Shown piece by piece: positions 1-56,999 of a stretch of DNA of 64,000 nt. The stretch covers positions 49,989,136-50,053,135 of the forward strand of contig CP141136.1 of the NCBI GenBank assembly GCA_035236585.1, given 5' to 3'. Numbering within the stretch: the stretch's first letter is position 1; each line of letters opens with the position of its first letter. The position numbers and the translations under genes are program-made. The notes under the pieces were generated by a model. The model saw only the letters and a program-made list of their open reading frames with translations. It searched no databases and was not told where the DNA came from. This DNA is from Warburgia ugandensis (lineage: Eukaryota; Streptophyta; Magnoliopsida; Canellales; Canellaceae).

Positions 1-512
1 GATATGAACTTAGTTTCTATCCCCATTCACATGGGACCAATTGTGTAGTAAGTTTTTGAAAAAATTCTTCCTCGTTCACAAAACAAATTTCCCTTCATCA
101 TGAAATTAATAATTTCCAACAAAAGGATGATGAACAATATTGTGAATTTTGAGAATGATGGAATGAAATATTGGAAAAATGCCCTCATCATGGATTTAAG
201 AAATAGTAGTAGGTTCAATACTTCTATAAGGCATTAACTCCTCAAAATAGGCAAATGGTGGATGCTACAAAGTGGAGGGACCCTCATGCTAAAAGATGAG
301 TGAGACACATAGGAGAACTTTTAGACATTGGCAAATAATTCTTAGCAATGGGATTATTCTAATAGAAGAGAGAGAAAAAACCAGTCTCCAAAGAAAGGGG
401 GTCTATATGAGATTGGAGCACATACAAATCAATCCTATAAGCCTGACTCTATAGTTGAAAAATTAAACAAACTAGTGCCTTTAGGTGGAGGAATGGACAA
501 ACTTGAAACTAT
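1..512 (+). pseudogene. Athila-like gag, C-terminal part (left of a solo-LTR insertion)
   Basis: Degenerate gag of a plus-strand Ty3/gypsy Athila-like element, entering from the left edge. Base by base it follows the minus-strand gag at 60239-60780: the stretch reading like 'FFPIHKNN..MKLSISNKG', the 'GNDGMN' region, the 'IIMELRNGS' region and the 'GGxMDKLE' tail are all recognisable, but several stops and frameshifts interrupt it. Gag would form the intracellular particle that packages element RNA. The gag sequence breaks at 517 and resumes at 3246, on the far side of a solo LTR. No intact reading frame remains. Confidence 0.8.
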
Positions 513-517
513 ATTTA

Positions 518-3245
518 TGTAATGCCCGAGAAATTTATGCTATTTTAGACATTCTATGGGAAATAAACTGTGTTAAATGTTTGACTTTATTTAAAATAGT
601 AAATGAAGGAATTTGTGAGGAAACTTGGCACCATTAGATTTTACTTGAAAAATGGAATCTAACGCCTCAAAGAACGCCAAAAACAGAGTTCGTATGAAGA
701 AGTTACGACCGTTTAAAGATCAGGGGCAATTCTGTAATTTAAATAAAAAACAAAAAAGAACGAAAAACTTAGGGGGGCCGTTTTGATAACGGCACCCCCT
801 GTCGTCTTCCACCTCTAGATTTCTCCAGAAACCCTCCTCTCACGAATTTTCCAGAAAACACAGGGGAAATGGAGGCACCGCCATTGAGGGGCACCGCCTT
901 CTTCCCTCTATAAATTCCCTATCTCCCCCTATCCAAAAACATGATTTTCCGGCCATTTTGAGATTGGGGTTTATGGAAAAAATCAGAAACCCGTCTCAAG
1001 CCAGTCTCCCCTACGTTTGTCGGCAATAGCCAGGCCCGAGTCAGGCCGGCCATTGCCATCTCCCCATTTCCCCTCTTCTCCTTTCCGGTCTGGCATTGGG
1101 GTTTTCCCCTTCTTCATGGGTTCCGACAACATAGATTTTCGGCAGAGGGAAATGCACCACCGGGAAAAAGGGTGTCCCCAGGCTACCCAAGTAAGCCCCT
1201 CCTTACCTTCTCTCTGTTTTGCTTCCCCCAGGCCAAGATCCATGCCGGATCTGGTCTTTTTCCAGTCGAATTTCTTGGCCGGAAAATGACCCAGCCGGTT
1301 CCAACCGGCTCTGCACGAACAAGGCATCCCAGGGATGCCATGCTTCACCTGCGCCTGGGACTGGGTCCCTGGGACAGGTTCCAGGCGTACGACAGTGCGT
1401 ACACTGTCCCAGGTGCGGCCTTCGGGTGTGCGCGTGATGCGGGGCACGGGTCCTGGCTCGACCAAGATGCACGGGGTGCCCTAGGAGCTGAGACGCACCA
1501 TGCTACACCAAAGGTGCGTCCGTGCAATGCCATCCAGGACGCACGTCATAGTGACTCACTTGAGCATGCATGTGAGCGTGCAAAACGCGGTCCCTGGCAC
1601 GGCCTTTGGGCGCACAGGCACATGAGGCGGTCGCGGTTCAACCAGGATACATGGGTGTCCTGGGAACTGGGACACGCGGACCTAATGAGACTTTAAAGTT
1701 AGGATTAGAGGACAATTTACAGAGTTTAACTCTTGAATAGTAGATCCATATCATAGGATCTAACCTGACAATGAATTAGGCAAGGACCATGGACCCTAAA
1801 AGGAAAATCTAGCGATCTAATGTCTAAATAGAATGAAATTGATAAGGACTCCTTGTATCCATTCATACCCAGGACTTTATAAATGAGACCTAGGGACGGG
1901 TTGAGTGATAAAGGATGCGACTCTAGGAGACTTTGAGGTAGGTGCTCTATCACTACTAGACTTTTTTTAAAAGGAACCTATGATTGTTTTGAGAATGCAT
2001 GTTTTAAGTTTAAGTTATATGACTTGTTTAGTATGACTTAATTTTATAAACGACTTCAGCATGCATACAACAAATACATTAGGCATAGACATGCTTTGCA
2101 AACAATTGCATATATTGCATGATTTGTGAGCATTGAGTTTTTGTAAAAATTGCATGTCCTTGAGGGTTACCAAAAGACGCTGGAGTGCCCAAAAGACGTT
2201 GGGTAGGTAGTTGTGAGGGCCATGCAGTTGTGAAGGACCCAAAGAGGACAGGTTTTGAAAAAGAGGTTTTCTCTTGTTTGATCTTATATGATTTGGGCTA
2301 ATAAGCTCGTGGGTGCTATGCCGAGAGGTCTGGGTTGGCTTCTAGCCACTACCACTATTAGGTGGAATGGGTACCACGCCCAAAAAGGGCAATGTCCCTA
2401 TGTCGACTGTATGTGGTACAGGGGGCTACCACTAGTGTCACGGCACTGGGTCGATATGTCATATGCCCCATGGAGGCTATGACGTTGTGTCCCTAGGTAC
2501 CCAGGGACCACACGGCGGTGAGGTCGTGGGCATAGTTGGGCCCTATGGTTTGAGGATTTACTTGCACTGCATATGGCATGACATGAGGTTGGTCGACCAT
2601 ACCAGATATTCATGAGTTGGATTCAGTTGAGCATCTTAAGCACATCATTATGTTTATGATATATATATATGTGATATTTTTGACTTGGATTATGTTATTC
2701 TTTAAGTCATCAGTATTCCAATTTGACAGTGGTCTTTAATATCGATATTGAACATGATTGCTCGAACATGCACATGTTTTAAAGAGCATATGATTTTAAA
2801 CATAGCATACATTGTAAAACTAGTAGTGATAGACTCCTACTGAGTATAGTATATACTCACCCTATCCTTAACATTTTTCAGGATAGTTCCATTCATGAGT
2901 AAAGGATACCTATGTTAGTGCTACGAGCAAGAAAAATCAAAAGGAGACAATTATACATGTAAGTAAACACTCTACCCTTTGGACATGTATTTGCATTTAA
3001 TTACAGTTGAGCTGTGAGCTATGACTGGATAGACCTGGGAAAACATTTATGATTTCTGACATTTTTCAAAAACTACTTTGGTTGTTGTGAAAGCAAATGA
3101 CACTCGGGGTTTTCAAAATGAGTTTGAAACTAAAGATTTTCCGCTGCATTGCATGGTTTTTATAAAATGTTTTTCAAATCGGGATCCCACGTTAGGAATT
3201 TAGATTTTTCATTTAAAAATGCATGTGAAAACCCAGGTCATCACA
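518..3245 (+). mobile_element. Solo LTR S1 (chromovirus/Tekay-Del type), 2,728 bp
   Basis: It begins TGTAATGCCCGAG and ends GGTCATCACA, the TG...CA form of a Ty3/gypsy LTR. It is flanked by a perfect 5-bp target duplication, ATTTA at 513-517 and 3246-3250. Removing it rejoins the interrupted Athila gag in register with the intact copy near 60240, which fixes both edges. A GC-rich block (about 990-1700) carries overlapping ORFs of up to 174 codons on both strands, typical of LTR sequence rather than a gene. The segment near 2830-2890 (ACTCCTACTGAGTATA, then ACTCACCCTA and TTTTCAGGAT) resembles the R/U5 region of other LTRs of this class. No internal region remains, so LTR-LTR recombination has removed it. 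Confidence 0.9.
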
Positions 3246-4170
3246 ATTTAAAACTACCACTCTATTCCATAAACCTCCACCCAGGGTATGTGCTACTTGT
3301 TCTAGTCCAAGCCATCTTACATCAGCTTGTCCATCAAATAAGTATACCCTGAATACCTTTTACAACAAGTGAATGCACTTAGTGCATATCACATTCCTAG
3401 CAACAACAACCCATATTCTAAGACCCATTATCTAAGATGGGCTGAGCAACCCAATTTGTGATGGCTGAAGAATCCTTATCAGGGAGGTATGTCTGAGAAC
3501 CTCCTATTCAAAACTTCTGCAAAACTTGCACTTCAAAGAAACCACCAGGTTTCAACTACGCCATTAAACACAAAAACCATCAATGGAGGATAATATGCAA
3601 TATATCATGAAAAGCTTAATGAAAATACTAAAGCCTTGCACCAAACCCAGAATGAGAGTTGACAAATATCGCTAAGTTAGAGAGGGAAATGGGTCAGTTG
3701 CATGTGTCTTTGAGTTAAAGGGAAAAAGGAAAGTTTCTTAGTTAGCCTATCCCTACCCTAAGGGCCAATTAGAAATAATGTTAGTTCACAAAGACCCCAT
3801 GAGCAAGTCAAGTCTGTCACAACTCTTAGGATTTGGTCATTAGGTTGATAAAAAAGTAGGGAAGACTGAGGACAAGGAAGAGGAGAATGAAAAGGCCAAC
3901 ACATAGGAGAAAGAGATTAGACTGAAACCTCCTACTCCATTGAAATTTAAGGTGGAGGCACCCTATGTGCCCAAAGCTCCATTCCTTTAATTACTCAACA
4001 AGGCTAAGAAAGGAACAAATTTCATTGAGATAATTGAAGTGTTTAAACATGTACAAATAAATATTCCATTATTCAATACTATATCAGATATTTTTGCTTA
4101 TTCCAAGTTTCTTAAAGAGCTCTACACTACAAAGTGAAAGCTTAGTGTGCAAAAAGAAAGCCTTGCTCAC
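3246..4170 (+). pseudogene. Athila-like gag, C-terminal part and gag-pol spacer (right of the solo LTR)
   Basis: Continuation of the gag cut at 517; the first 150 bases track the gag of the minus-strand element below 60260. Further on, a stretch near 3950-4130 reads as the segment preceding protease in Athila polyproteins: a 'KAPF..LLNKAKKG..FIEIIEVFKHVQINIP' region followed by 'YSKFLKELY'. Stops and frameshifts are frequent, so this is a dead copy. Confidence 0.7.
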
Positions 4171-4177
4171 CTAGTAG

Positions 4178-4620
4178 GTGAGCTCATTAATTCAACACAA
4201 GACCTCAACACAATCTAGAGATCTAAGATGTCCTACAATTTCTTGCAGTATAGGAAAACATGTCACAGATAGGGCGCTACTTGACTTAGGGGCTAGTGTT
4301 AATCTGTTGTCGTACTCTGTCTATGAGCAATTAGTGCTTAGTGAGATTAAGCCAACCAACCCCACATTGTAGTTAGTTGATGGGTCAATTAAGATTCCTT
4401 TTGGTATGGTTGAAGATGTATTAATATAGGTGGACCAATTTTATTTCCCGGTTAATTTCATTATCCTGGATACGCAGCCTATATCAGACTTCAATAATCA
4501 GATCCCAGTAATTCTTGGACATCCATTCTTGGCAATGTCCAATGCAATCATAAATTATAGAAATGGTGTATTACAATTATCCTATGGAATATGAAAGTGG
4601 AGCTCAATGTTTTCAATGCT
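4178..4620 (+). pseudogene. Athila-like aspartic protease (PR) domain
   Basis: PR cleaves the Gag-Pol polyprotein. A 64-codon open stretch (4178-4372) contains the active-site motif as 'LLDLGASVNLLSYS', where family members have D-L/S-G-A-S. After a stop it continues as 'GMVEDVLI..VDQFYFPVNFIILD', then 'IPVILGHPFLAMSNAIINYRNG', the usual PR C-terminal half. The homologous domain on the minus strand is at 58900-59305. Two or more in-frame stops make it non-functional. Confidence 0.8.
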
Positions 4621-4894
4621 AACCATAAACAATTAGATCTTAATGACTCTTGTAACCTAATTGAAGATTAAATACCAGAAGTTCTACCACCATTATCAAC
4701 CTTCGATCCATTAGTGGCCTATCTTACACATTGTAATTTCACTTTTTAATGTCTAGTTGAAGCTGTTAAACTAGCACTTACTACGAGTCAACCTAGGGTC
4801 TTAGAGTCTCATGGTTTTGCATCACTTATTTATCATATAGATGTTTTATATTTCAAAACATTACGGACAATGTTTCATTTAGGTTGGGGAGGGG
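4621..4894 (+). other. Deletion scar joining the PR-RT linker to the 3' polypurine tract
   Basis: After PR the sequence follows the PR-RT linker seen at 58391-58900 on the minus strand only to about 4830 ('PPLSTFDPLVAYLTH'). It then jumps to the element's 3' end: AAAACATTACGGACAATG..TTAGGTTGGGGAGGGG at 4857-4894 matches 17034-17071 beside the next LTR. RT, RNase H and integrase are therefore missing here. The G-rich run 4883-4894 is the likely polypurine tract that primes plus-strand DNA. Confidence 0.7.
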
Positions 4895-7800
4895 TGTAGA
4901 CATGCATGAGATATCTAGTTTTTTTTTTTCTCTTTTTCCTGTTAAAAAAAATTAAAAATATTTTGAGGAAGAGTTCCCTTACTGTGATGAGAATCGGATG
5001 TTCAGAATTTAGTAATTCTACTATTTTTACCTCTTAATGGAAGTGCATATGGCTAGTTTTGCATATTATCCATACATTAGTAGAGACCTATAACTCAGTG
5101 AGTTTGGAAACTCTTCTTTCAAAGAGTTATAAGTAATTCCACAGTTTCTTTAGTGTACATAATTTAATGTGATCCTATTATCCTTGTTTTGGTTAACTAT
5201 CAAGAATAAGTAGGAGTAATAGCTTTATTTCTAAAAAATTTATTGAATCTAATAGGCTTTAGGAAACTTAGGGAATGATGTAGGCTATCCTTGTTCAGCC
5301 TAGAGACATAAAACCTACCCAATATAGTATACCACTAGTTAACCTCTTGAGTAAATTATGAAGCCTTTTGCTTCTTTAAACCAATTTACCTTAACCCAAA
5401 ACATGCTAGAAAAATAAATAATTATTACCCATTTTCAAAATGAATAGAGTTAGTAGAAAAGTTCAAAGAGGACAAAAAGTCAAAGAAATGAAAAACACAA
5501 GAAGTCTTTCTCTTAAAGAAGTTAAAAGAAAAAGAAATATAAGTGAAAAGAAAGAAATATCAGTAAAGAAGAGAAAAATTAAAAGTAAAGAATATAAAGG
5601 GTATTCACTTCAACAAAGTTAAAGAAGAATTGTCCAATAATAAAAAAAAGAAGAACTCTACGTGATTTTGAACCTTTGAAATCCTTATACCCTTCTTTTC
5701 TAAACCTGTCCCAAGCCTACGTTCCATCCTTTTTAAAGACCTATTGATCTTAGGTGGTATATAGCCTTAAAGAGGAAATAAAAAGAAGGGACTAAGGAAA
5801 AATACCCCTACTATTCTTGGTAATTACATCAACTCTTAGGGATCACTTTCCTTTATCTCATCAGCACTTAAAAATTTATGTGAACCATTAGTTTGTTGGA
5901 TTCGATCACATAATGAGAAAAATATGTTCAACCCTTATTTGAGAGATTCATTTATGAGAGAATACCTGAGAGAATTTGAGGTCAAAATATATTTCTAATG
6001 GAATTTAAGCATATCCAGTTAAACATCAAGGCTTATGTGGTTGTACACAAACATGCACTCTGAGAAATAACTAGAATAAAATATCTTTATTATGTGTATG
6101 ATTTGTAAAATTAATAATCTTCTCTCTTAAGTTGGGAAAAACTAGTAGATTACTGATGAATGAGGATTTTTTGAGATAAAATAAGGGACTTAACCTTAGA
6201 GAACTTTGTGGGTATATTCACTGCAAGCCTTCACAAGGCATAACTCGTCCACTAGGGGTAACCTAGGGGTTTAAGGGCTTGTTGCGTATGCTAAGTGCAA
6301 TCGTGAATACCTAAAAAAATGGCAATTATTATGTTTTCATGATTTTTTGTATATTTTTCTTGGGACTACAAAAATACTGGTTGTGCTCAATTTTGTATAT
6401 AAAGTACAAATTAGTTGCCCGTGTGCTATAACTTATAGTGTTAAATGAGGGTTTTTAGCCAAAATTTTGTAACACATGCATTTCTAACCTAATAATTCAA
6501 AAGTTTGATATTTTTTAGGTTCATGAGCTAATCCAAAGTAAGTATATGAATGATCATTATTTTCTAAGAATTAATTAGGATTTTTCTTTTTTAAGTGTTG
6601 AGAAGGTAATCCAAAGGTCGAGATTGATCGAGATAAGAATTGCGGTTATTCATGAGGTTTCTTACTCAAACTAGAAAACCTTAGCAAGATAAAGCCTAAA
6701 TTTCATCAATCTAATGTGTGAAGAAGGTTCAAGATCATCTTATGGCAAGCAAGAATACAATTGGAAGAGCTAAGGTGACTAAAATGGGCCCATTAGGCAA
6801 GCCATGCATTTGCACTACCTTTGCATGGGAGCCATTCAAGCCACCTTAGCCATATAAGCCATGAGAGAAGGTGACAAGCTAACATATTCAAGCCATGCCA
6901 AATGAGTCCTCAAAGTTAGTCATACAAGCCAACTAAGCCAAGTGTCACATCTAGATGGAAATTGAAGTCATTCATGAGGTTTCCTAGTCTAATTAGGAAA
7001 CCTGTGCAAGCCAAAGCCTAAATGTCATCAATCCAAGTTGTGATGAAGGTACAAGACTATCCTATGGCAATCTACAAGGCAATAGAGAAGCAAAAGGTGA
7101 CTAGAAATGGACTTAAGACCAAGCCATGCATTTTCACCACCTTTGCATGCAAGCCATTCAAGCCACCTACACCATTAAAGCCATGAAAAAGGGTGACAAG
7201 CCATATGAGCTACTTAAGCCTTGAAGCCAATTAAGTCACAAAGGAATGAACCATCAAAGTGAGCCATTAAGCCAAGGAGGAGTGCCACATGGAGTCACAC
7301 AATAGGAGCATCAATGCAAGCAACTTTCCTATGTTAAGAGTGTGATTTTTAAGGAATTTTGTGAGATTAATATAAAAGTTAAGATGATCATGTATTAAGA
7401 CACCCATAAATAGATAAAATCCCACCTTCCTAATCCATTTTCTAACCTGACTCCACCATTCATACTATGGTTCCACGTTTTTAAGTGGAGGAGGGAGCAA
7501 CCATCCAAAAGGATGACGGCCCCCTTTCCCGATTGGTGATCAAGTGGTTTCCTAAATAGGAGACCTTAGATCTAATTCAATTCAATTAACATCAAAATTG
7601 TAGATCTTTCTACATATTTACTAAACCTTATTTCTCACTTAATTCCTTGATTTTTCACCATTCAAATTCCATCCAATCAAGAGGGTGGAGAGCCACTTTC
7701 CTTCTATGGAAAATGATGCCTTCCCCACTTTCTAATTTAGAGATCAGTCAGCTCATATTTATTTCTCTCTCTTATGTCATCTATAATGATATCATTCCCA

Positions 7801-9477
7801 TCTAAATTTCCTCCTCCTAAATTTCTCATTCAACACCCTAACCCCAGGGCCACTTTCCTCATGTTTTCACCCTTTCCTAAGTTAGGAAACCACTCATCTA
7901 TTTATATCCCCATGGTCCATATGTATTTTCTAAGTAGAGGTGGGTGACACACCTTGAAATCAATCTTTCCTTTGGTGTTATTTTCCATTTGAATTTGGGA
8001 TTTCTTAGATGCTTTTCTCCATTTGGATTTCTAGTGATTATCTTGGTTATTTGCTCTCCAATTCAGGCTAGTAGTTTGCTTGCTTTGGTTTAGTTTTCAT
8101 TGCTTAGATTCCATTGTTTTGCTTTCCAGTTTTGCACCTTTCTTTCTATCTAGCTTTTTTTGTTCTTATTTACCTCAATTCCAGTTGTTTTTTTATCATC
8201 CAAGAGAATAGCTAGCTTAAATCCATGATTTTCCCAATTGAATTCTACATTTTCTATAGTTAGTTCACCCACTTAGATTTCTTTTTTCATTAATTAATTT
8301 TTCTGTTTTATTTGCATTTCATTATAGTTTATATTATGATCATTAGATTGGAATTTTTTTGTTGTTTAGATAGGATTTCAGTCTTTAGAAAAGTGCGCAA
8401 GTTTTATATTGTGTGGATAGTTTCATGTTTATAATTTTGATGTAAATTGGATGTGGTTCAACAAAGTTCTATGGGAATTATTGTTATGGAATGCTTGTTT
8501 CATCAAATTATTTGAAATATGGGTTCTTTTCTTGCATAAAAGTTATGGTTTCAATAGCTTTCTAATGTAAGATTTATTGACTATTTTTAAGTACCAAAAT
8601 CTAGACATTGGTTTTTCCTTAACTTTGTGCTTTAATTCCAGCTACCAAAACATCTTATTTTCCTAAATACTTAAGTACTCATTTATATTTTCATATTTTT
8701 TTAATTAGATCCCATGCTTAGTTTCCATAATAACTCACTGTACCTGCATTAAATTTCACCATCTTTAGGGCTTCAGATTCATGCACATCATCCAAAAACC
8801 ATGGGCATGGTTCTAAATCCCATTTATTTTGGATTTTTGCTTAGTTTAGTTGCTTAATTAAGTTTTGACATTATTTAATTTATTAGTTGCATATTATTTT
8901 AGTTTTATAAGTTTCCTTTTGACTTTTAGGAAGTTCCATCTTTAGAAAGTTTTAGTATTGAGAAGGTGTGAAAGTGGTCTTTAATTGTAGTTTCCATTCA
9001 CATGGATATTTCTAATTCTTGTTGAAGTTAGTTAGATCTTACTAGTAACCTGTTTTTCCGCATTAGTTTAGTGTTAGAAAGTTTATTAAATTGGTTTTAG
9101 AAAGTTTCTAATTCTAGTTTAGGAAAGTGTCATTTTTAGTACTTTCCTTTAATTTAAGTTTCTTAATTTGATTCATGATAATTTAGCATTAGTTTCCTTT
9201 AATTACTTGCATATTAGTTAGGTTAATTTGTAATTTCATTGTTTACTTTTAAGTTTGAGTAAGCTTCTTTTATGTTTAGTTTCTAATTCCATGCATGCTT
9301 TAGTTTCATGTTAGGTAATTTCCAAATTAATCACAACTCTTCTTTGACTGAAGTTAATTAACTTGAATAAAATTCAATCCATTACAAATATGTGAGATTC
9401 CTTATGGTATCAACGTTGCTTGCATGAAAATACTATATTGATTCATGCATTTGAGAGTTAACTTTAAAATCATAACA
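4895..9477 (+). mobile_element. Athila-like LTR, copy A1, about 4.58 kb
   Basis: It starts TGTAGACATGCA directly after a polypurine tract. It ends near 9477 in a typical Athila/Tat terminus: GATTCCTTATGGTATCAACG, then a short AT-rich stretch, then CATAACA. The same order of sequence recurs at 17072-21243 (copy A2) and in reverse at 52228-55895. The copy is longer than A2, partly because of an internal 322-bp tandem duplication at 6649-7292. No coding region is present; short ORFs such as 5440-5622 are lysine/arginine-rich AT sequence. The right end is fused to pol sequence instead of a primer-binding site. Confidence 0.75.
6649..7292 (+). repeat. 322-bp tandem duplication inside LTR A1, rich in AAGCCA
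   Basis: The segment beginning TTCATGAGGTTT at 6649 is repeated from 6971, and both copies run through the same landmarks (AAAGCCTAAAT, ATCAATC, GCCATGCATTT, CACCTTTGCATG, CCATTCAAGCCACC, AGCCATGA). LTR A2 has a single copy of this region (about 18890-19280). The hexamer AAGCCA recurs many times in it, as it does in reverse at 53880-54130. Confidence 0.75.
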
Positions 9478-9967
9478 TCTGACCACTTGATTTGAGTGCA
9501 TCATTTGAGATAATGTGTGTCACGTTGGATTATGCTATTGGAGTTGTTTTGGGGCAGTGGATTGCTAAACTTCCCCATATGATGTATTGTACTTGTAAAA
9601 CACTAAATTACATGTAACTAAACTATTCAACCATAGAAAAAAAGTTGCTAGCTATAGTGTTTGCTCTGGATAAGTTTTAAATCTTACTTGTTAGGGTCTA
9701 AAGTCATACCCTACTCGGATCATATGGCTGTAAAGTACCTCCTTTCTAAAATGGATGGAAAACCTAGGTTGATTCATTGGATACTCCTACTATAAGAATT
9801 TGACTTAGAAATTAGGGATAAGAAAGGTTTCAAAAATGTCGTAGTAGGCCACTTATCCAGATTAATGGTGAAGCACACAAGCTATAATGTGCTTATAGCT
9901 AAATCCTTTCTGGATTAACATTTATCACACATTTCCTAGTTAATTTAGTATGGTGATATAGTAAATT
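9435..9967 (+). pseudogene. Array unit 1 (left edge): LTR end + RNase H, frameshifted
   Basis: Founder-like edge unit. It reads 'DYAIGVVLGQ', then '[14 protein letters not shown]', then loses frame because of an extra T after AAGTTT (near 9677). The 'KELLA' glutamate of intact RNase H (seen at 57147-57359 on the minus strand) is already lysine, and the CDAS aspartate is already gone (the codons read C-V-T-L). It shares CTTATAGCT and TATGGTGATA with unit 12 against the internal units (CTTAAAGCT or CATAAAGCT, and TACGCTGATA or TATGCTGATA), as expected if both edges escaped homogenisation. Confidence 0.85.
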
Positions 9968-11563
9968 ATATTGATTTGTGCATTTGCGAGTTAACTTTAA
10001 AATCACAACATCTGACCACTTGATTGGAGTGCACCATTTAAGATAATGTGTGGCATGTTGGATTATGCTATTGGAGCTGTTTTGGGGCAGTGATTTGCTA
10101 AACTTCCCCATGTGATGTATTGTACTCGTAAAAACTAAATGATATGTAACTCAACTATTCGATCATAGAAAAAAAAGTTGTTAGGTGTAGTGTTTGCTCT
10201 GGATAAGTTTAAATCTTACTTATTAGGGTCTAAAGTCATAGCCTACTCGGATCATACGACTGTAAAGTACCTCCTCTCTAAAATGGATGCAAAACCTAGG
10301 TTGATTCATTGGATACTCCTACTACAAGAATTTGACTTAGAAATTAGGGACAAGAAAGGTTTCAAAAATTTCGTAGTAGACCACTTATCCAGATTAATGG
10401 TGGAGCACACTAGCTATAATGTGCATAAAGCTAAATCCTTTCTGGATGAACATTTATCGCACATTTCGTAGTTAACTTAGTATGCTGATATAGTAAATTA
10501 TATTGATTTGTGCATTTGCGAGTTAACTTTAAAATCACAACATCTGACCACTTGATTTGAGTGCACCATTTAAGATAATGTGTGGCATGTTGGATTATGC
10601 TATTGGAGCTGTTTTGGGGTAGTGAATTGCTAAACTTCCCCATGTGATGTATTGTACTCGTAAAAACTAAATGATATGTAACTCAACCATTCGATCATAG
10701 AAAAAAAAGTTGTTAGGTGTAGTGTTTGCTCTCGATAAGTTTAAATCTTACTTATTAGGGTCTAAAGTCATAGCCTACTCGGATCATACGACTGTAAAGT
10801 ACCTCCTTTCTAAAATGGATGCAAAACCTAGGTTGATTCATTGGATACTCCTACTACAAGAATTTGACTTAGAAATTAGGGACAAGAAAGGTTTCAAAAA
10901 TGTCGTAGTAGACCACTTATCCAGATTAATGGTGGAGCACACTAGCTATAATGTGCTTAAAGCTAAATCCTTTACGGATGAACATTTATCGCACAATTCC
11001 TAGTTAACTTAGTACGCTGATATAGTAAATTATATTGATTTGTGCATTTGCGAGTTAACTTTAAAATCACAACATTTGACCACTTGATTGGAGTGCACCA
11101 TTTAAGATAGTGTGTGGCATGTTGGATTATGCTATTGGAGCTGTTTTGGGGTGGTGATTTGCTAAACTTCCCCATGTGATGTATTGTAATCGTAAAAACT
11201 AAATGATATGTAACTCAACTATTCGATCACAGAAAAAAAAGTTGTTAGGTGTAGTGTTTGCTCTGGATAAGTTTAAATCTTACTTATTAGGGTCTAAAGT
11301 CATAGCCTACTCGGATCATACGACTGTAAAGTACCTCCTTTCTAAAATGGATGCAAAACCTAGGTTGATTCATTGGATACTCCTACTACAAGAATTTGAT
11401 TTAGAAATTAGGGACAAGAAAGGTTTCAAAAATGTCGTAGTAGACCACTTATCCAGATTAATGGTGGAGCACACTAGCTATAATGTGCTTAAAGCTAAAT
11501 CCTTTCTGGATGAACATTTATCACACATTTCCTAGTTAACTTAGTATGCTGATATAGTAAATT
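9968..11563 (+). repeat. Higher-order block 1 (units 2-4, types A-B-C)
   Basis: Unit 2 (A) carries CATAAAGCT and TTTCGTAG. Unit 3 (B) carries CTCTCGATAAG, CACAATTCC and TACGCTG. Unit 4 (C) has GATCACAG in place of GATCATAG, which removes a stop, so an ATG-started frame of 110 codons (11203-11535) is open; A and B units are open only from a TTG. Each unit encodes the RNase H core from '[18 protein letters not shown]' through '[16 protein letters not shown]' to '[16 protein letters not shown]'. Confidence 0.85.
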
Positions 11564-13159
11564 ATATTGATTTGTGCATTTGCGAGTTAACTTTAAAATC
11601 ACAACATCCGACCACTTGATTTGGGTGCACCATTTAAGATAATGTGTGGCATGTTGGATTGTGCTATTGGAGCTGTTTTGGGGTAGTGAATTGCTAAACT
11701 TCCCCATGTGATGTGTTGTACTCGTAAAAACTAAATGATATGTAACTCAACTATTCGATTCACCGAAAAAAAAGTTGTTAGGTGTAGTGTTTGCTCTGGA
11801 TAAGTTTAAATCTTACTTATTAGGGTCTAAAGTCATAGCCTACTCGGATCATACGACTGTAAAGTACCTCCTTTCTAAAATGGATGCAAAACCTAGGTTG
11901 ATTCATTGGATACTCCTACTACAAGAATTTGACTTAGAAATTAGGGACAAGAAAGGTTTCAAAAATGTCGTAGTAGACCACTTATCGAGATTAATGGTGG
12001 AACACACTAGCTATAATGTGCATAAAGCTAAATCCTTTACGGATGAACATTTATTGCACATTTCGTAGTTAACTTAGTATGCTGATATAGTAAATTATAT
12101 TGATTTGTGCATTTGCGAGTTAACTTTAAAATCACAACATCCGACCACTTGATTTGAGTGCACCATTTAAGATAATGTGTGGCATGTTGGATTATACTAT
12201 TGGAGCTGTTTTGGGTTAGTGAATTGCTAAACTTCCCCATGTGATGTATTGTACTCGTAAAAACTAAATGATATGTAACTCAACCATTCGATCATAGAAA
12301 AAAAGTTGTTAGGTGTAGTGTTTGCTCTCGATAAGTTTAAATCTTACTTATTAGGGTCTAAAGTCATAGCCTACTCGGATCATACGACTGTAAAGTACCT
12401 CCTTTCTAAAATGGATGCAAAACCTAGGTTGATTCATTGGATACTCCTACTACAAGAATTTGACTTAGAAATTAGGGACAAGAAAGGTTTCAAAAATGTC
12501 GTAGTAGACCACTTATCCAGATTAATGGTGGAGCACACTAGCTATAATGTGCTTAAAGCTAAATCCTTTCTGGATGAACATTTATCGCACAATTCCTAGT
12601 TAACTTAGTACGCTGATATAGTAAATTATATTGATTTGTGCATTTGCGAGTTAACTTTAAAATCACAACATTTGACCACTTGATTGGAGTGCACCATTTA
12701 AGATAGTGTGTGGCATGTTGGATTATGCTATTGGAGCTGTTTTGGGGTGGTGATTTGCTAAACTTCCCCATGTGATGTATTGTAATCGTAAAAACTAAAT
12801 GATATGTAACTCAACTATTCGATCACAGAAAAAAAAGTTGTTAGGTGTAGTGTTTGCTCTGGATAAGTTTAAATCTTACTTATTAGGGTCTAAAGTCATA
12901 GCCTACTCGGATCATACGACTGTAAAGTACCTCCTTTCTAAAATGGATGCAAAACCTAGGTTGATTCATTGGATACTCCTACTACAAGAATTTGATTTAG
13001 AAATTAGGGACAAGAAAGGTTTCAAAAATGTCGTAGTAGACCACTTATCCAGATTAATGGTGGAGCACACTAGCTATAATGTGCTTAAAGCTAAATCCTT
13101 TACGGATGAACATTTATCACACATTTCCTAGTTAACTTAGTATGCTGATATAGTAAATT
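11564..13159 (+). repeat. Higher-order block 2 (units 5-7, types A-B-C)
   Basis: It repeats the A-B-C order: unit 5 has CATAAAGCT and TTTCGTAG with GATTCACCG, unit 6 has CTCTCGATAAG and CACAATTCC, and unit 7 has GATCACAG and an ATG-started 110-codon frame (12799-13131). Units 5 and 7, with unit 3 of block 1, carry the TTTACGGATG variant (reading FTDE instead of FLDE), a two-unit spacing that cuts across the three-unit pattern. Confidence 0.85.
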
Positions 13160-14756
13160 ATATTGATTTGTGCATTTGCGAGTTAACTTTAAAATCACAA
13201 CATCCGACCACTTGATTTGGGTGCACCATTTAAGATAATGTGTGGCATGTTGGATTGTGCTATTGGAGCTGTTTTGGGGTAGTGAATTGCTAAACTTCCC
13301 CATGTGATGTGTTGTACTCGTAAAAACTAAATGATATGTAACTCAACTATTCGATTCACAGAAAAAAAAGTTGTTAGGTGTAGTGTTTGCTCTGGATAAG
13401 TTTAAATCTTACTTATTAGGGTCTAAAGTCATAGCCTACTCGGATCATACGACTGTAAAGTACCTCCTTTCTAAAATGGATGCAAAACCTAGGTTGATTC
13501 ATTGGATACTCCTACTACAAGAATTTGACTTAGAAATTAGGGACAAGAAAGGTTTCAAAAATGTCGTAGTAGACCACTTATCGAGATTAATGGTGGAACA
13601 CACTAGCTATAATGTGCATAAAGCTAAATCCTTTCTGGATGAACATTTATTGCACATTTCGTAGTTAACTTAGTATGCTGATATAGTAAATTATATTGAT
13701 TTGTGCATTTGCGAGTTAACTTTAAAATCACAACATCTGACCACTTGATTTGAGTGCACCATTTAAGATAATGTGTGGCATGTTGGATTATACTATTGGA
13801 GCTGTTTTGGGTTAGTGAATTGCTAAACTTCCCCATGTGATGTATTGTACTCGTAAAAACTAAATGATATGTAACTCAACCATTCGATCATAGAAAAAAA
13901 AGTTGTTAGGTGTAGTGTTTGCTCTCGATAAGTTTAAATCTTACTTATTAGGGTCTAAAGTCATAGCCTACTCGGATCATACGACTGTAAAGTACCTCCT
14001 TTCTAAAATGGATGCAAAACCTAGGTTGATTCATTGGATACTCCTACTACAAGAATTTGACTTAGAAATTAGGGACAAGAAAGGTTTCAAAAATGTCGTA
14101 GTAGACCACTTATCCAGATTAATGGTGGAGCACACTAGCTATAATGTGCTTAAAGCTAAATCCTTTCTGGATGAACATTTATCGCACAATTCCTAGTTAA
14201 CTTAGTACGCTGATATAGTAAATTATATTGATTTGTGCATTTGCGAGTTAACTTTAAAATCACAACATTTGACCACTTGATTGGAGTGCACCATTTAAGA
14301 TAGTGTGTGGCATGTTGGATTATGCTATTGGAGCTGTTTTGGGGTGGTGATTTGCTAAATTTCCCCATGTGATGTATTGTACTCGTAAAAACTAAATGAT
14401 ATGTAACTCAACTATTCGATCACAGAAAAAAAAGTTGTTAGGTGTAGTGTTTGTTCTGGATAAGTTTAAATCTTACTTATTAGGGTCTAAAGACATAGCC
14501 TACTCAGATCATACGACTGTAAAGTACCTCCTTTCTAAAATGGATGCAAAACCTAGGTTGATTCATTGGATACTCCTACTACAAGAATTTGACTTAGAAA
14601 TTAGGGACAAGAAAGGTTTCAAAAATATCGTAGTAGACCACTTATCCAGATTAATGGTGGAGCACACTAGCTATAATGTGCTTAAAGCTAAATCCTTTCT
14701 GGATGAACATTTATCACACATTTCCTAGTTAACTTAGTATGCTGATATAGTAAATT
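13160..14756 (+). repeat. Higher-order block 3 (units 8-10, types A-B-C)
   Basis: Third A-B-C round. Unit 8 has CATAAAGCT and TTTCGTAG with GATTCACAG; unit 9 has CTCTCGATAAG and CACAATTCC; unit 10 has GATCACAG with an ATG-started 110-codon frame (14396-14728). Unit 10 carries private changes ([22 protein letters not shown]). All three have TTTCTGGATG (FLDE), unlike units 3, 5 and 7. Confidence 0.85.
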
Positions 14757-15821
14757 ATATTGATTTGTGCATTTGCGAGTTAACTTTAAAATCACAACAT
14801 CCGACCACTTGATTTGGGTGCACCATTTAAGATAATGTGTGGCATGTTGGATTGTGCTATTGGAGCTGTTTTGGGGTAGTGAATTGCTAAACTTCCCCAT
14901 GTGATGTATTGTACTCGTAAAAACTAAATGATATGTAACTCAACTATTCGATTATAGAAAAAAAAGTTGTTAGGTGTAGTGTTTGCTCTGGATAAGTTTA
15001 AATCTTACTTATTAGGGTCTAAAGTCATAGCCTACTCGGATCATACGACTGTAAAGTACCTCCTTTCTAAAATGGATGCAAAACCTAGGTTGATTCATTG
15101 GATACTCCTACTACAAGAATTTGACTTAGAAATTAGGGACAAGAAAGGTTTCAAAAATGTCGTAGTAGACCACTTATCCAGATTAATGGTGGAGCACACT
15201 AGCTATAATGTGCTTAAAGCTAAATCCTTTCTGGATGAACATTTATCACACATTTCCTAGTTAACTTAGTATGCTGATATAGTAAATTATATTGATTTGT
15301 GCATTTGCGAGTTAACTTTAAAATCACAACATCCGACCACTTGATTTGGGTGCACCATTTGAGATAATGTGTGGCATGTTGGATTGTGCTATTGGAGCTG
15401 TTTTGGGGTAGTGAATTGCTAAACTTCCCTATGTGATGTGTTGTACTCGTAAAAAACTAAATGATGTGTAACTCAACTATTCGGCCACAGAAAAAAAAGT
15501 TGCTAGGTGTAGTATTTGCTCTGGATAAGTTAAAATCTTACTTGTCAGGGTCTAAAGTCATAGCCTACTCAGATCATACGATTGTAAAGTACCTCCTTTC
15601 TAAAATGGATGCAAAACCTAGGTTGATTCATTGGGTACTCCTACTACAAGAATTTGACTTAGAAATTAGGGACAAGAATGGTTTCAAAAATGTCGTAGTA
15701 GACCACTTATCTAGATTATTGGTGGAGCACACTAGCTATAATGTGCTTATAGCTAAATCCTTTCTGGATGAACATTTATCACACATTTCCCAGTTACCTT
15801 AGTATGGTGATATAGTAAATT
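14757..15821 (+). repeat. Array units 11-12 (right edge) running back into normal pol
   Basis: Unit 11 has an A-like linker (CATCCGACC, GATTTGGGTG, GGATTGTGC) but a C-like tail. Unit 12 is more divergent: [27 protein letters not shown] and RDKNGFK, open from an ATG at 15461 for 113 codons. It ends with GGTGATATAGTAAATTATCTTGATAC, the unrearranged pol sequence that leads into integrase. Confidence 0.85.
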
Positions 15822-16902
15822 ATCTTGATACAAGTCAAATGCCCAATCTTTGGACAAAGCAAGATAGGAAGATATTTTTAATGAGGTTAAATACTTTACT
15901 TAGGATGATTCGTACTTATTGAAGTATTGTCCTGATTAGGCGATAAGGAGATGTGTACCAGATAGTGAGCATTGTAGGATCATCTCCTTTTGTCATGATC
16001 ATGCATGTGGGGGCCATTTTAGCTCTAGAAAGATTGTTGCAAAAATTTTGTAGTGTCGTATTTTTATTGGCCCACCTCTTATAAAGATTCAAATGCTTAT
16101 TGCACAGCATGTGTGAGGTGCCAAAAGTTAGGAAGTGTAAGAAGGAGACACATGATGCACTTAATCCCAATCCTTCATGTAGAACCATTTGATATTTGGG
16201 GGGAAACACTTTTGTAATAACGTGTTTCAGAATCTAATGAAAAAGTATGGTGTCAACCATAGGATAGCTACCCCTTACCATCCTTAGCCTTGTGTGGCTA
16301 AGTAGAGGTATCTAATAAGAAAATTAAGCGTATCCTAGAGAAGATAGTCAATCCAAAGAAAGAGTGGACTATGAGACTCAATAACACTTTATGGGCCTAT
16401 CGTACAGCTTATAAAACCCAATAGGCATGTCTCCCTATCGCTTGGTCTATGAAAAAGCTTGCCACTTACCAGTAGAGCTAGAACACAAGGCATATTGGGC
16501 TATTAAAAAGCTCAATTTTGAATTAGATGTTGTTGAGACCCACCGAAAACTCCAACTCAATGAGTTGGATATGATTTTGCATGAATATACAAAGACTGGA
16601 TGAAGGTTAACCATAATAGCCAAATCTTAATGAAATTCTTCACACTTGGGCAAATGGTTTTGTTGTATAATTCAATATTGCATCTCTTTCTAAGAAAACT
16701 TAGATCTCAATGGACTAGACTTTATATCATATGCACAGTATACTCGTATGGGGCCATCGAGATTGAGGAGGGTGAGACTCAAAAAGTAAATGGTCAGAGC
16801 TTAAAACCTTTCCTAGAATTGTCTAACCCTGAGAATGATGAGCCACTATTAGAGGCACCTCATTATCATAACCCATGTAGAATATTCCAGGGAAACTTGT
16901 AG
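15822..16902 (+). pseudogene. Athila-like integrase, degenerate
   Basis: Integrase inserts element cDNA into the host chromosome. Pieces follow the minus-strand homologue at 55900-56900: the zinc-finger region is scrambled (near 16080-16170), then '[34 protein letters not shown]', '[12 protein letters not shown]', and the C-terminal part open at 16600-16902 (a 'GQMVLLYNSILHLF' region, 'KLRSQWTRLY', 'YGAIEIE', 'KVNGQSLKPFLE'). Many stops and frameshifts lie upstream. It sits directly after the RNase H array, its normal neighbour in pol. Confidence 0.8.
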
Positions 16903-17033
16903 ATCATAGTCCTTGCACTCATCATTATGTCTGGCTAAAGACATAAAACTTAGCACTCCCTGAGAGGTAATGTAGATGTTTTTCTAATCTCAGTCTTCTA
17001 CATCTTTCCATGGTCATTTAGGGTCCTATGTTT

Positions 17034-17071
17034 TAAAACATTGGGGACAATGTTTCATTTAGGATGGGGGT
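17034..17071 (+). promoter_or_regulatory. Polypurine tract and 3' end of the element's internal region
   Basis: AAAACATTGGGGACAATG, then TTTCATTTAGGATGGGGG, immediately before the LTR. This is the usual 3' end of Athila/Tat internal DNA and primes plus-strand synthesis. It matches 4857-4894, beside LTR A1. Confidence 0.65.
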
Positions 17072-20000
17072 TTAGATGTACATTGAAAATTTGAATTTTC
17101 TTAACTTTCTCCCTCCCCCTCCCCACCACCTCCAACCACCCCACCACACACAAAAAAAAAATTCAAGCAAAGTTACCATACTATGTTGAGAACTGGATTT
17201 TCATAACTTAGTAATTCTACTATTTTTCCCTTCTAGTGGAAGTGTATGTGGCAAGTTTTATTTATTATTCATGAGTTGAAGCATTTTATGAAGCTTAATT
17301 CTCAAAAAATATTTACACATAGCCTATAGTCAAGACTAATAGAAAGGTATAGCTTAGAGACCTATAACCCAATGAGTTTTAGAGACTATCTTCTTTTAGA
17401 GAGTTAAAGTAATTCCCTAGTTTCTTTAGATTGCATAATTTAGTGTGATCTTGTGACCCCTGTTTTGGTTAACTGTCATGAATAAATAGGAGTAACAGCT
17501 TTCTTTCTAGAAAGTTTATTGAATTTGATAGGCTTTAGAAAATCTAGAAAATTATATAGGCCATCTTTGTTCAACCCAAAGACATAAAACCTACCCAATA
17601 TAGTATATCACTAGTTAACCCTTTGAGCCTATTATTAAGCTTTTTCTTTCTTAACCCCACTTACCTTAAACTAGAAAAACTAAGAAATAAACATCTAGTA
17701 ACCATTTCGAAAAAGGGTAGAGAGTAGAAAAGTTTCAAAAGGACAAAAGGTTAAAGAAGTGTAAAACACCAGAAGTCTTTATCTTGACAAAGTCAAAAGA
17801 AAAATGAAAAGAAAGAAATAGGAGAAAAATTAAAAGGCAAAAATATAAAGAAAATTCACTTCAGTTTAGTCAAACAAAAAGTCCAACAATCGAAAGAAGA
17901 CCTCTACTAAATTTTGAAATTTGAAATCCTTATTCCTTCCTTTTCTAAAACTGTCCCAAGCCTTCATTTCATACCATTTGAAGACCTGTGGAACCTAGGT
18001 GGAACATAGCCTTAAAGAGGATATAAAAAGAAGGAATTAAGGTAAACTACCCTACTATTCTTATTGATGGCATCCACTCTTAGGGATCACTTTCCTTTTT
18101 CTCTGTAGCACTTAAAAATTTATGTGAACAATTAGCTTGTTGGATCCAATCACATAATGAGAAAAATATGCTTAACCCCTTATCTGACAGCTTCACTGTT
18201 GAGAGTAAACTTGTGAAGATGTGAGTTCAAAACATATTTTTAATGGAATTTAAGCATATCTAATTATTAGTCATGACTTATGTGGTTGTACACACACATG
18301 CACTCCAAGAAATAACTAGAATAAGATATCATTAATGTGCATATAATATGTAGAATTGCCGGTCATCTCCATTAAGTTGTGAAAATAGTAGTGGATTGTT
18401 AATGAATGAGGATTCTCTAAGATAAAATAGGGGACTCAATCTTAGGGAATTTTGTGGGTATATTCATTGCAAACTCTCATGAGACATAACTCGTCTACTA
18501 GGGGTTCAGTGGCTTTAAGCATGAGCTAAATGTAATCATGAGTACCTATGAAAGTGGTACTTTATATCCTATTTTATGAAATGATTTTTCATCTGTTTTG
18601 CTTGAGACTAGAAAAATGCTATTTGGGGGGTGGGGGGGGGGGCTTAGTAAGTGTCTAATTTGCATAAAAATTACCCAACTAGTTACGCATGTGTTATAAC
18701 TTATAGCGGTAAAAGAAGGTTTTTGACCAAGATTTGTAACACACATTTTTAACCTAATGACTCAAAAATTTCATATTTTGTAGGTTCAGAGATTAATCCA
18801 AGGTAAGTATGCAATTAATCATATTTTTTTAGACTTTAGTTAGAGTTTTTTTTAAAGTTTTTGTAGGAAGCAAGATGGTGATTCAACATCCAAGATTGAT
18901 TGGGATGAAAATGGAAGATCAAGATCAAAACATCAAGTGAAGACCAAAAAATCATTAATCCAAAATGAGATCAAAGGTCAAGATCATCTTTAGTACAAGC
19001 ATAGGATGCAATTAGAGGGTCCATAGGTAGCCATAGTGGGCCCATGCGCAAGCCATGCAAAGTCCACCACCTTTGCATGTGTTTCACTTAAGCTACTTAA
19101 CCATATTCAAGCCATGAAGAAAGTGACAAGCTAAGTAACCAAGCCAAACACAAAGTCAAGGATTTGAGCCTTCAAGCTAAATCAAGAAAGCCATCCAAGA
19201 TAGCCATGAAGCTAAGCCAATTGAGCTCTCAAAGTTGGCCATCATAAGCCATACAAGCCAAGCTACAAGGAAGGCCATGATTGGAGGAAAATACAAAGAA
19301 TTATCCTTGGGATTTATGGGGATTTTTGAAGAGAATAGGGGAAAGTTCTACTAGGATGAGGGAGCATGTGGACCAATAAGAAGAGACCCATTTATTTTTT
19401 ATATATTTTCTATGTTTTTCCCACTTTTTCTCACTTTCTACCTCACCACACAAATCTACCATGAATTTCCACCTTTCCACTTAAAGAGTTTCAAATTTCT
19501 AAAACTCTTGGACCAACTCACCATTCTAACTCTATCCAATCCCCTCACTCTACTTATTTCCCTTATCTCTCCATCTTTCCTCATTTCTACATCTCTTTCC
19601 TAGCCACCTATCTACTTAAAATCAATCCTAACCATTATATCTCATCTCAATAATCTCCACACTAGAAAAGAGGAGAAGGAAACCAATTATATAACTCCTA
19701 TAGGGATTCCATGTCGGAGAATATCTTTGGGAAGGAAAGAGGCTCCTAAGAAAGTGGTGCCTCGCTCCTTTAACTCTTTTCCACGTCTCCCATTCTAGAA
19801 TAGAAAAGCAAGGTGGAATGCTTAGAAGTGGGACATGTCCAACACCTCCAACCCATCTCTAACCTTTCTTCTTTGGTTCCTCACTCATCTACAAGGTAAG
19901 TCTTCCAAGCTTGTGTTCTTGTTCATGGTTTTATTAGTTTTCCTTTCGCTAGATTGTTTATGCATAGTGATTCTCCTTGTTTTCTTTTCAACTTGTCTTA

Positions 20001-21243
20001 TACTTTGTTACCCATCTCTATTTTTTCTTCATAGTCCAAGGTTTCTTTCCTCGTGAAGTGATAGCCAAGGGAAAGCTATCTTTTATCTTCATTTTGTTCT
20101 AGATCCACATCTAGGTGATTTCCTTCCCAATTTTATGACCTTTGATCACTTCTTTTCTCCTGTGGTTCCTAAGCATGGTGCTTTATGATATTGGCTATGA
20201 ATTGTGGGTAGTTTAAGGTTGTTTTGGTTGGTATTTTCTTGTTAATAGTCTGCACCATTTCAGTATTCATGACATGTAACATGCTTACTACTCTATATGT
20301 AGTTTTGGATTTAATATATTCATTTGATTGTTTAGCTTTCTCTAATTTGATTTGAATGATTTAAGCATTTTTAGTTGTGAATGGAATTCAACCATTACCC
20401 ACGAGTGGTGTTCATGAATGATCATTTGTTTTAAATCAGAATGTTTCATGGTGATACAAAGAATATTTTGGTGATAAGATTCACACACAAGGTTACATGC
20501 TTTAGTTAAATGTACCATGCGTTCTTTCCTTAAGGAATCGTACAAGCTGTGCCTTGGATATTCTCATACAATCCACAGTTTTCTATTTGTATCAAGGATC
20601 ATTTAGATTTAGCAAAGAAGTCACGGACCATTATCCTTGAACCATGTGTACACCTTTTGGGTCATATGCATGGTTATGAGGGAGTGCTATATTATTTGAT
20701 GAATTCTCTATTAGTCTAGTTCTCCATTAGTTTCTATGCATCCTAATGTTTGCATGTTCCATTTAGATAGTTACCATAGATGCATTAAGATTACATGCTT
20801 TTAGTTTTCATTTAAAACATCTGGTAGTCCTTTCATCATAGGATCATATGCACCATCCATTGGTGTCATGTGCATCATTGTTAGATGAGTTTCTTACTCT
20901 ATTTGTTTGATTCATTAGTTAACTATTAGTTTAGAGAGTGCCTAATTTTAATCTTATAAATTTTAATTTCAATTTAGGAAAGTGCTATCTATAGAGAATA
21001 TGTTTTTAGGAAAGTTTCCATCTTAGTTTGTTTACTTTTATTTCCATATGTTATGTGTTCAATTTATGTTAGGTTTCCAATATTAGTTTGGGTTTATAAT
21101 CTCACCATCTTAAGCTAGGTTATTTAGTTTAAGTAAGGGCCCACATAACACACAATTGTTTGATTCCTTGTGGGATCAATCACCTTGCACGAATTACTAC
21201 AGTCAGTTTATGCGCTTGCATGTTTTAACTTAAAATCACAACA
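17072..21243 (+). mobile_element. Athila-like LTR, copy A2, about 4.17 kb
   Basis: Same sequence order as LTR A1: TTCTACTATTTTTCCCTTCTAGTGGAAGTG, the K/R-rich AT block near 17700-17880, an AAGCCA-rich part (about 19020-19280), and a terminus TTGATTCCTTGTGGGATCAATC...AAAATCACAACA. A G-run (GGGGGGTGGGGGGGGGGGG, about 18625-18643) lies in the first half. Short ORFs here (18546-18746, 19412-19603, 19835-20056) show no conserved domain. Its end abuts, without spacer, the truncated LTR of a minus-strand chromovirus. Confidence 0.75.
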
Positions 21244-35570: not shown

Positions 35571-36884
35571 TGTGATGACTTGGGTTTTTATAACACTTTT
35601 ATATACAAAAGACATTTACATAGCGAAATCGATCTCTATTGAAAACCATTTTTAAAAACGAAATAACAGCACAAGAATCTTTTTCTTTTAAGTTAATTCT
35701 TAAAAACCCCAAGTGCCAATTTTCTTTTCTTAAAAAGGATTCTCAGTGAAATGAGCACTACATTTCTATCAAAAATTTGGCAGAGTTTTCTCTATTTTTT
35801 GAACATAAGACATTTAACGCATGTCATTGTGAAGTACCTGATAAACATTCTTTTCTATTTCAAAACAAGATTGGAGACTCCGTCTCCTTTTCAGAAACTT
35901 CTAACATGCAACATTCCCAAGACTTATCAGACACAGCCCAAATACAATTTAAATCACATATAACATTGAAATATTACCTATATAGTTAACATAATTTAAG
36001 TCTCTTAACAAAACTCTAAATTACCTTGCTACTTACCCTATTTAATCTACACATGGCCCTCTTAAAATCTCAATCACCTTTCTATTTCTCTTTGAGTCTC
36101 AGTAGATAATCCAATACTACAAAACTAAAATCACAGCATACACATCCAATGATTTGAAGAAAGGTTTTTTTGATGATAAAATCACTTGGCCACAAGCCAT
36201 CTCATGGAATGCATTATACGAAAACCTATGCATGTATACATATATGTATGTATATCATCCATAGAATACACATTATGCTTGACAAACCAAGTAACATATA
36301 ATTACTTTAACATTCATAGTAGTGATTCGATAATCTACATGTCGGACATTTCAAACCAACAATAACATCATCACTGTGCACATATCTATTCGAAGGAGCA
36401 TTATACAGTCATGTAATCTTAAACATATGATGATATTCATATTATATACATCACAGTTCATTTCAAGTAATCCCATATCATATCATTACATTAGATATCA
36501 ACTCATGACGTAGTCAGATCTATATCAAATCATCTTAAACTCTAACAACTCATAATCTACTTAGAGCTTGCTATAAACGAATACAATGCAATTAGCTTAA
36601 TAGAAATCCCATTTAGGATTTAATCTATCCATGTACACATTAGTACACGTAAAATCACAAGATATCCTTATGAAGGATAATGCATTCTATCAGTTGCACA
36701 ATTTCGTGAAAAAACAATTGAATCATTTTAATTGAATCATAGGCAAATCCATGCCAAAAATACATTTGAGCATATCAGCTCATCACAGGCAAATCCATGC
36801 CAAAACCAAATCTCCAATCAAATCATACATGTGAAGACAATCTCAATGCATATAAAATCATAAGATATCCATAGTCTTACAACT

Positions 36885-37395
36885 CTTATAAGTCATTTCA
36901 TATTACCTGAGTACCAGTCTTCAACTCTTACAAGTCATTTCACATTACTTGGCACCAATCTTAAATTCTTACAAGTCATTTCACATTACCTGGTGGTAGT
37001 CTTCAACTCTTACGAATTATTTCACATTACCTAGCACCAGTCTTAAACTCTTACCAGTTGTTTTACATTACCTAGTACCAGTCTTCAACTCTTACGAGTC
37101 ATTTCACATTACATGGTACCAGTCTTCAACTCTTATGAGTCGTTACACATTACCTGGTACTAGTGTCCAACTGTTACGAGTCATTTCACATTACTTAGTA
37201 CTAGTCTTCAACTCTTACGAGTCGTTTCACATTACCTGGTATCAGTCTTCAACTCTTACAAGTCGTTTTACATTACCTGGTACCAGTCTTCAACTCTTAC
37301 GAGTCATTTCACATTACTTGGTATCAGTCTTCAACTCTTACAGGTCGTTTCACATTACCTAGTACTAGTCTTCAACTCTTACAAGCTGTTTCACA
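36885..37395 (+). repeat. 41-bp minisatellite, about 12 copies
   Basis: The unit reads CCTGGTACCAGTCTTCAACT, CTTACGAGTCATTTCACATTA. The phrase CTTCAACTCT or its variant recurs at 37001, 37042, 37083 and 37124, exactly 41 bp apart. Units differ by a few bases each. It lies wholly inside solo LTR S2. Confidence 0.95.
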
Positions 37396-56880: not shown

Positions 56881-56999
56881 AGTACAAGTCGTCCCAAGTG
56901 AAATATCTAACCTCAAGAAATAATCTCTTTTTATCTTGTTTGGTCCAATAATTAGGCATTTTTCTTATAACAAGATAATTAACAATATTACCATACCAA

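Follow-up and report, generated by a model that had tools for sequence, protein, structure and literature searches.

How does a piece of a retrotransposon become a tandem repeat? The question is raised by a 64,000-nucleotide stretch of the Warburgia ugandensis genome (referred to as the window; contig CP141136.1, here C11, positions 49989136-50053135; genome of 1.12 Gb in 14 contigs). An earlier note, made from the letters of the window alone, had described twelve ~532-bp units at 9435..15821 in which a long terminal repeat (LTR) terminus is joined to the RNase H end of pol, and had ascribed this fusion to a rearrangement of a retrotransposon. Our analysis shows that the LTR/pol joint is the 3' integration junction of one element, probably of the Ty3/Gypsy type, nested in the RNase H region of another, and that the sole rearrangement is a 532-bp tandem duplication. 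We favour, with a probability of roughly 0.85, a history in which the nested insertion came first, the duplication across its joint later, and growth with a three-unit period thereafter. Negative coordinates denote positions before the start of the window, and adding 49989135 to any coordinate gives the C11 position.

The tandem array itself is real. Twelve anchors within the repeat, from 9455 to 15309, are spaced by 531-533 bp; the array was found where it had been described, with twelve units counted and its coordinates agreeing to within one base. The units, each of 531-533 bp, were cut at TATATTGATT (9434, 9967, ... 15288, with the right edge at 15821) and are 89.9-99.6% identical to one another. 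Tandem Repeats Finder, whose longest period is 500, does not list the array. Head-to-tail units with a higher-order structure, here twelve units with a three-unit period, are a trait of satellites; long arrays, as a rule at many loci or in large blocks, are another such trait and were not seen. The array occupies 6.4 kb at one locus among the scored matches and pattern matches of the genome searches described below, and we therefore label it satellite-like and not a satellite.

Each unit consists of 44 bp of LTR 3' end (unit positions 1-44) and about 488 bp running from RNase H to the early integrase. The left flank of the array (8207-9477) aligns with the 5' LTR of the nested element at -2178 to -900, and the match continues through 9477, with 352 of 421 positions identical in the best local alignment, which runs ~34 bp past the terminus. 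In the nested 5' LTR the same terminus is followed by AGTTTTTGACATAG, which we take to be primer-site-like. A genome search with 9000-9480, for which the best 40 of 4,482 candidates were scored, gave at least 52 matches. Apart from the query and the nested 5' LTR, 11 of them are short ones within the array, and 39 lie elsewhere. Among these scored matches, 29 of the 39 elsewhere reach window position 9468 or past it, and so extend at least 35 bases into the 44. The remainder of the unit was recognized as RNase H (PF17917, E 1.5e-13 on an open piece of unit U04); it runs colinearly into the integrase on the right and is colinear with all 12 fetched pol copies and with a minus-strand relative in the window. 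The earlier description of an LTR terminus joined to the RNase H end of pol was thus correct. The idea that its LTR piece is really pol, suggested by a weak pol alignment from GAGTTGACTT on, was rejected because the nested 5' LTR and many LTR copies match to the terminus.

The end of the LTR was also followed across the genome with the pattern TATTGATTTGTGCATTTGCGAGTTAACTT, allowing up to 3 mismatches. It occurs at 23 places, 12 in the array and 11 elsewhere. With 600 bp fetched on each side, all 11 outside places have LTR-like sequence upstream (weakest E 2.5e-8), four continue with AGTTTTTG, and a direct passage from LTR to RNase H was found in none. One of the 11, L033 (C5:44450767-44451995), carries an LTR end ~305 bp upstream of an RNase H stretch. 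This may be another nested insertion into that region of pol; the fetched part contains no array.

The origin of the joint is revealed by what lies beyond the nested element. On the upstream side, pol adjoins the nested 5' LTR (TGATAA at -6976), reading ..CATTATCCAA, and all 12 fetched pol loci match this upstream pol, 11 of them to -6981 and one to -6977. After the 3' LTR (..AACA, ending at 9477) the host reads TCTGACCACTTG. At L013, an uninterrupted locus, the match to one half ends at 1937 and that to the other begins at 1940, so the host is colinear on both sides of the insertion. The nested element has an LTR pair with TG...CA ends (TGATAA...AACA) and 5-bp flanks, TCCAA (5') and TCTGA (3'), each one CpG-type change away from TCCGA. 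At the position of this target-site duplication (TSD), TCCGA itself stands in five of the 12 units (U05, U06, U08, U11, U12), TCTGA in four (U01, U02, U03, U09) and TTTGA in three (U04, U07, U10). The host has its own LTR pair, its upstream member aligned at -24026 to -21562, with 79.7% identity and a perfect TSD (TGCAA/TGCAA). Host pol halves on both sides, the TSDs and the two LTR pairs together indicate that the joint was made by integration and not by fusion within one element.

Consequently, the fusion by rearrangement proposed in the earlier note does not hold, in view of the TG...CA LTR ends, the decayed 5-bp TSD and the other pol half beyond the nested element. Its model, in which a rearrangement such as an internal deletion within one element fuses the LTR end to that element's own RNase H and amplification follows, would account for LTR and RNase H being joined at the left edge, as a deletion could yield the same. 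It does so, however, at odds with the position of the joint at the LTR terminus, with the other half of the interrupted pol directly before the nested 5' LTR and with separate LTR pairs for the nested and host elements, and we consider it very improbable. The flanks had been named rightly as LTR on the left and integrase on the right, but they come from two elements: the LTR belongs to the nested element and the integrase to the host. Likewise, the pol letters that had been quoted for comparison, CATTATCTAACC, belong to the minus-strand relative in the window; in the interrupted host the two sides read CATTATCCAA and TCTGACC.

Both edges of the array are unbroken: the LTR continues to the left of U01 and the host continues into integrase to the right of U12. 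The unit therefore derives from a segment, 44 bp of it LTR and 489 bp host, that was duplicated in tandem. The two breakpoint partners, TATATTGAT in the LTR and TATCTTGAT in the host pol, match at 8 of 9 positions, which confirms the short LTR/pol homology at the repeat boundary that had been noticed before. In the units, the letter preceding TAT is that of the host and the letter following it that of the LTR, which places the switch within this 3-bp TAT. Such likeness is rare nearby: of 353,133 LTR/host 9-mer pairs in the neighbourhood, compared in one fixed register, 76 match at 8 or 9 positions. We infer microhomology-mediated repair or template switching as the mechanism of duplication. 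That the array was brought in by retrotransposition of the host was rejected, since both the end of the nested LTR and the TSD belonging to this very insertion are part of the unit. Origin, edges and unit do lie together at one place, as the earlier note had it.

The first copies might instead stem from an excised circle, a rolling-circle product put back into the chromosome, rather than from direct duplication in place. Circles give head-to-tail arrays, and one closed at TAT would leave the same joint. Nevertheless, the array lies where its source sequence lies and neither edge is broken, so that the return of a circle is possible but unneeded, and the units are up to 10% different, so that growth was spread over time. 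We regard such a circle as improbable and retain direct duplication across the joint.

The relative order of events was estimated from Kimura two-parameter distances, which are 0.165 for the host LTRs, 0.168 (7022-8203) and 0.177 (8207-9477) for the nested LTRs, 0.099 for the edge units U01 and U12, and 0.0038-0.0146 for pairs of three-unit blocks. The edge units are less diverged than the nested LTRs (49/532 vs 355/2319, Fisher p 0.0002) and also than the host LTRs (Fisher p 0.0006), so the array was founded after both insertions. If rates were equal and no conversion between the edge units rejuvenated them, the founding would fall at roughly 0.6 of the insertions' age.

Growth of the array has left a three-unit higher-order period, a feature missing from the earlier note. 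The mean differences among U02-U11 at lags 1-7 are 17.6, 16.2, 7.0, 16.7, 16.2, 9.5 and 14.3, and in 100,000 trials with shuffled unit order the lag-3 value has p 0.0005 at lag 3 and 0.005 when any of lags 1-5 is allowed. Over 1,596 bp, 7 positions separate block U04-U06 from block U07-U09, against 11 to 25 for the other five block pairs compared. A tree built together with three pol copies groups U03/U06/U09, U04/U07/U10 and U05/U08. Moreover, at four sites of the pol part every one of the ten inner units has the derived state, where both edge units keep the ancestral one; private changes in the pol part number 18 in U01 and 8 in U12, and 8 variable sites are without polarity. Such shared inner changes are expected from exchange within the array with neglected edges. 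While growth by three-unit blocks is visible in the pattern, the kind of recombination behind it is conjectural.

The favoured history would run as follows. An LTR retrotransposon, probably of the Ty3/Gypsy type, integrates into the RNase H of a related element, leaving an ordinary LTR/TSD/host joint. A segment across this joint, reaching 44 bp back into the LTR and 489 bp forward into host pol, is then tandemly duplicated with a switch in TAT. The resulting 533-bp direct repeat would grow as sister arrays undergo unequal exchange or gene conversion, the latest growth steps moving three-unit blocks. Several observations weigh against this history. The two present TSD copies are identical at 3 of 5 bases only. 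The host LTRs are not more diverged than the nested LTRs (p 0.57), although the host is necessarily the older element; perhaps little time passed between the two insertions. U11 falls near the edge units in the tree, not with U05/U08. A 2-bp variant, ACG in U03, U05 and U07 vs CTG in the others, is off the three-unit period (10974-13103, U03-U08), and could result from gene conversion or from mixed haplotypes. Finally, the copy number comes from one assembly only. If it were partly an artefact of assembly, for example with haplotypes mixed or the newest trimers counted twice, both the odd ACG/CTG alternation and the close likeness of U04-U06 to U07-U09 would find an explanation; misassembly alone, however, cannot make several units when most unit pairs show at least 10 differences and the edge units differ from the others at 24-54 positions. 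Such an artefact we judge to be quite improbable, and growth by exchange after duplication across the nested joint remains our preferred reading.

The RNase H frame is open for 100-113 amino acids in 11 of 12 units, as would be seen if the fragment were under selection and the array had a coding role. We looked for such selection and found it unsupported. Amino-acid changes are not scarce among U02-U12 (233 non-synonymous against 188 synonymous, pairwise sums uncorrected for site numbers or shared descent), the frame is broken in U01, the unit covers 58 of 105 positions of the RNase H model, and the open frame elsewhere is accounted for by shared descent with homogenisation. A coding role is therefore extremely improbable, and judging from the substitutions the array is probably neutral.

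To place the array in the genome as a whole, the search with an entire unit that the earlier note had recommended was run; the best 40 of 4,028 candidates were scored and the counts are lower bounds. It gave at least 51 matches, the 12 units and 39 others of 81-82% identity in the pol part only. No second array was found, in that no two of the 39 outside matches lie close together among the scored matches, and none was present in the 12 fetched pol loci, each of which has one pol match at the corresponding place. A larger array elsewhere was thus seen neither among the scored matches nor by the TATTGATTTGTGCATTTGCGAGTTAACTT pattern. These searches point to a single locus without proving it, and the array is accordingly a small, satellite-like one with one known locus.

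Satellites derived from transposable elements (TE) are already known. The maize repeats CRM1TR and CRM4TR derive wholly from Ty3/Gypsy elements and their unit begins inside the LTR, as it does here; the authors propose that illegitimate recombination starts and gene conversion grows such repeats, and suggest that they might have arisen from nested insertions (Sharma et al. 2013, PMC3648361). The maize unit combines LTR and untranslated region (UTR) of one kind of element, with the internal deletion and the nesting both inferred, a composition not found in our array, where LTR end, TSD and a second element's RNase H make up the unit and the nesting is visible. In maize CEN10, a 22.7-kb segmental tandem duplication within nested retrotransposons likewise joins coding sequence to an LTR at a few identical nucleotides, 5 there and 3 here; it is a single duplication, however, for which the parts consulted of that paper (Wolfgruber et al. 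2016, PMC4806543) describe neither later amplification nor growth of a higher order. The Ogre-derived satellites of Lathyrus sativus also lead from retrotransposon sequence to tandem arrays, as short arrays that are occasionally expanded. They come from tandem repeats in the 3' UTR of the element and move with it (Vondrak et al. 2019/2020, PMC7004042), whereas the present repeat formed at a single locus once insertion had taken place, out of pol and LTR sequence and not from pre-existing 3' UTR repeats. The tandem LTR-retrotransposon structures described for plants are head-to-tail as well, but consist of whole elements sharing LTRs and are ascribed to single insertions (Morales-Diaz et al. 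2025, PMC11899658), in contrast to our sub-element unit. Further cases of TE-derived tandem repeats are tabulated in PMC9659126.

A further parallel is a scenario set out in a recent review, in which composite satellite monomers arise in 'transposon graveyards' by nesting of decayed elements and subsequent tandemisation, their origin being called an open question (PMC12628747). This route is seen at the present locus for two partners; unlike in the scenario as outlined there, the partners are related elements, and parents, TSD and breakpoint are still in place. In the literature searched, most subscription papers being outside its scope, no array was found with a monomer that extends across the joint of a nested insertion and includes the TSD; a monomer of this kind, with both founder edges intact, is unusual. 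The beginnings of satellites usually have to be inferred from finished arrays that no longer show where they arose. At this locus parent joint, TSD, breakpoint, founder edges and growth steps stand together, and two LTR pairs serve as references for their order, which provides a worked case for the recent proposal of composite monomers arising among nested transposons, as well as a search rule for testing it elsewhere, namely a TSD inside the monomer. We would suggest, tentatively and with more doubt than confidence, that insertion into a relative seeds satellites as a recurrent route, the related AT-rich partners supplying similar breakpoints near the joint. If so, some established composite satellites should hold a fossil TSD between two TE fragments within the monomer.

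Features of the nested and host elements and of the array, in window coordinates (C11 positions are given for parts upstream of the window).
Feature	Position	Strand	Remarks
Nested LTR retrotransposon, inner part	1..6377	+	5' LTR upstream of window from C11:49982159; gag/RT-like and 3' parts match minus-strand relative 54225-60804
Nested element 3' LTR, degenerate	6378..9477	+	Start by register with 5' LTR; 7022-8203 and 8207-9477 match 5' LTR
Left breakpoint partner TATATTGAT, in LTR	9434..9442	+	
Whole array, 12 units of 531-533 bp	9434..15820	+	44 bp of LTR 3' end, then TSD and host RNase H as far as early integrase
Unit U01, left founder edge	9434..9966	+	Original LTR end 9434-9477 + host pol; frame broken
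Nested TSD, 3' copy TCTGA	9478..9482	+	5' copy TCCAA at C11:49982154-49982158
Inner units U02-U11 (ten)	9967..15287	+	Four derived pol-part sites in common, lacking in both edge units
Trimer block U03-U05	10499..12095	+	
Trimer block U06-U08	12096..13691	+	
Trimer block U09-U11	13692..15287	+	U11 loosely in U05/U08 class
Unit U12, right founder edge	15288..15820	+	Continuous with host integrase
Right breakpoint partner TATCTTGAT, in host pol	15821..15829	+	
Host integrase and 3' region	15821..18644	+	Integrase_H2C2 in 16029-16217; colinear with 12/12 fetched pol copies
Host 3' LTR (aligned part)	18648..21243	+	5' LTR aligns at C11:49965109-49967573
Host 3' TSD TGCAA	21244..21248	+	Identical to 5' copy

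As to the lineage of the elements, domain scans were made on open pieces of frame. In the host pol, RNase H scored above the cut-off, Integrase_H2C2 slightly below it (piece 16029-16217: E 1.7e-5, 25.3 bits, cut-off 25.5) and reverse transcriptase (RT) weakly (E 0.0011). RNase H precedes integrase and RT precedes RNase H, an order that fits Ty3/Gypsy elements, and gag was found in the minus-strand relative. A homologue search with the RNase H piece gave 3,227 proteins; the 120 listed among them showed only ordinary RNase H domains, the organisms noted being mostly plants. The label Athila given to the LTR in the earlier note could not be confirmed: the Pfam ATHILA model PF03078 matched neither the genome nor 14 controls and is hence uninformative. 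The gag, the primer site and the long LTRs may be Athila-like.

The region holds further repeats. The nested 5' LTR is split by ~3.5 kb of other repeat sequence (L021:4315-7821; C11:49983450-49986956) that resembles the window at 25.6-31.1 kb in reverse. Upstream of its pol, the host contains a ~1.5-kb direct repeat pair, 86.7% identical (C11:49971824-49979883, in fetched loci L023 and L021), which is probably a further nested LTR element. Within the nested element, 962-1696 carries an open stretch of 244 codons and the opposite strand one of 165 codons (983-1480). The third related element of the window, at 54225-61062 on the minus strand, carries a gag domain (PF03732), and its RNase H and integrase stretches are each present in a single copy. 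A 41-bp tandem repeat lies at 36873-37397, with 12.8 copies and 84% matches.

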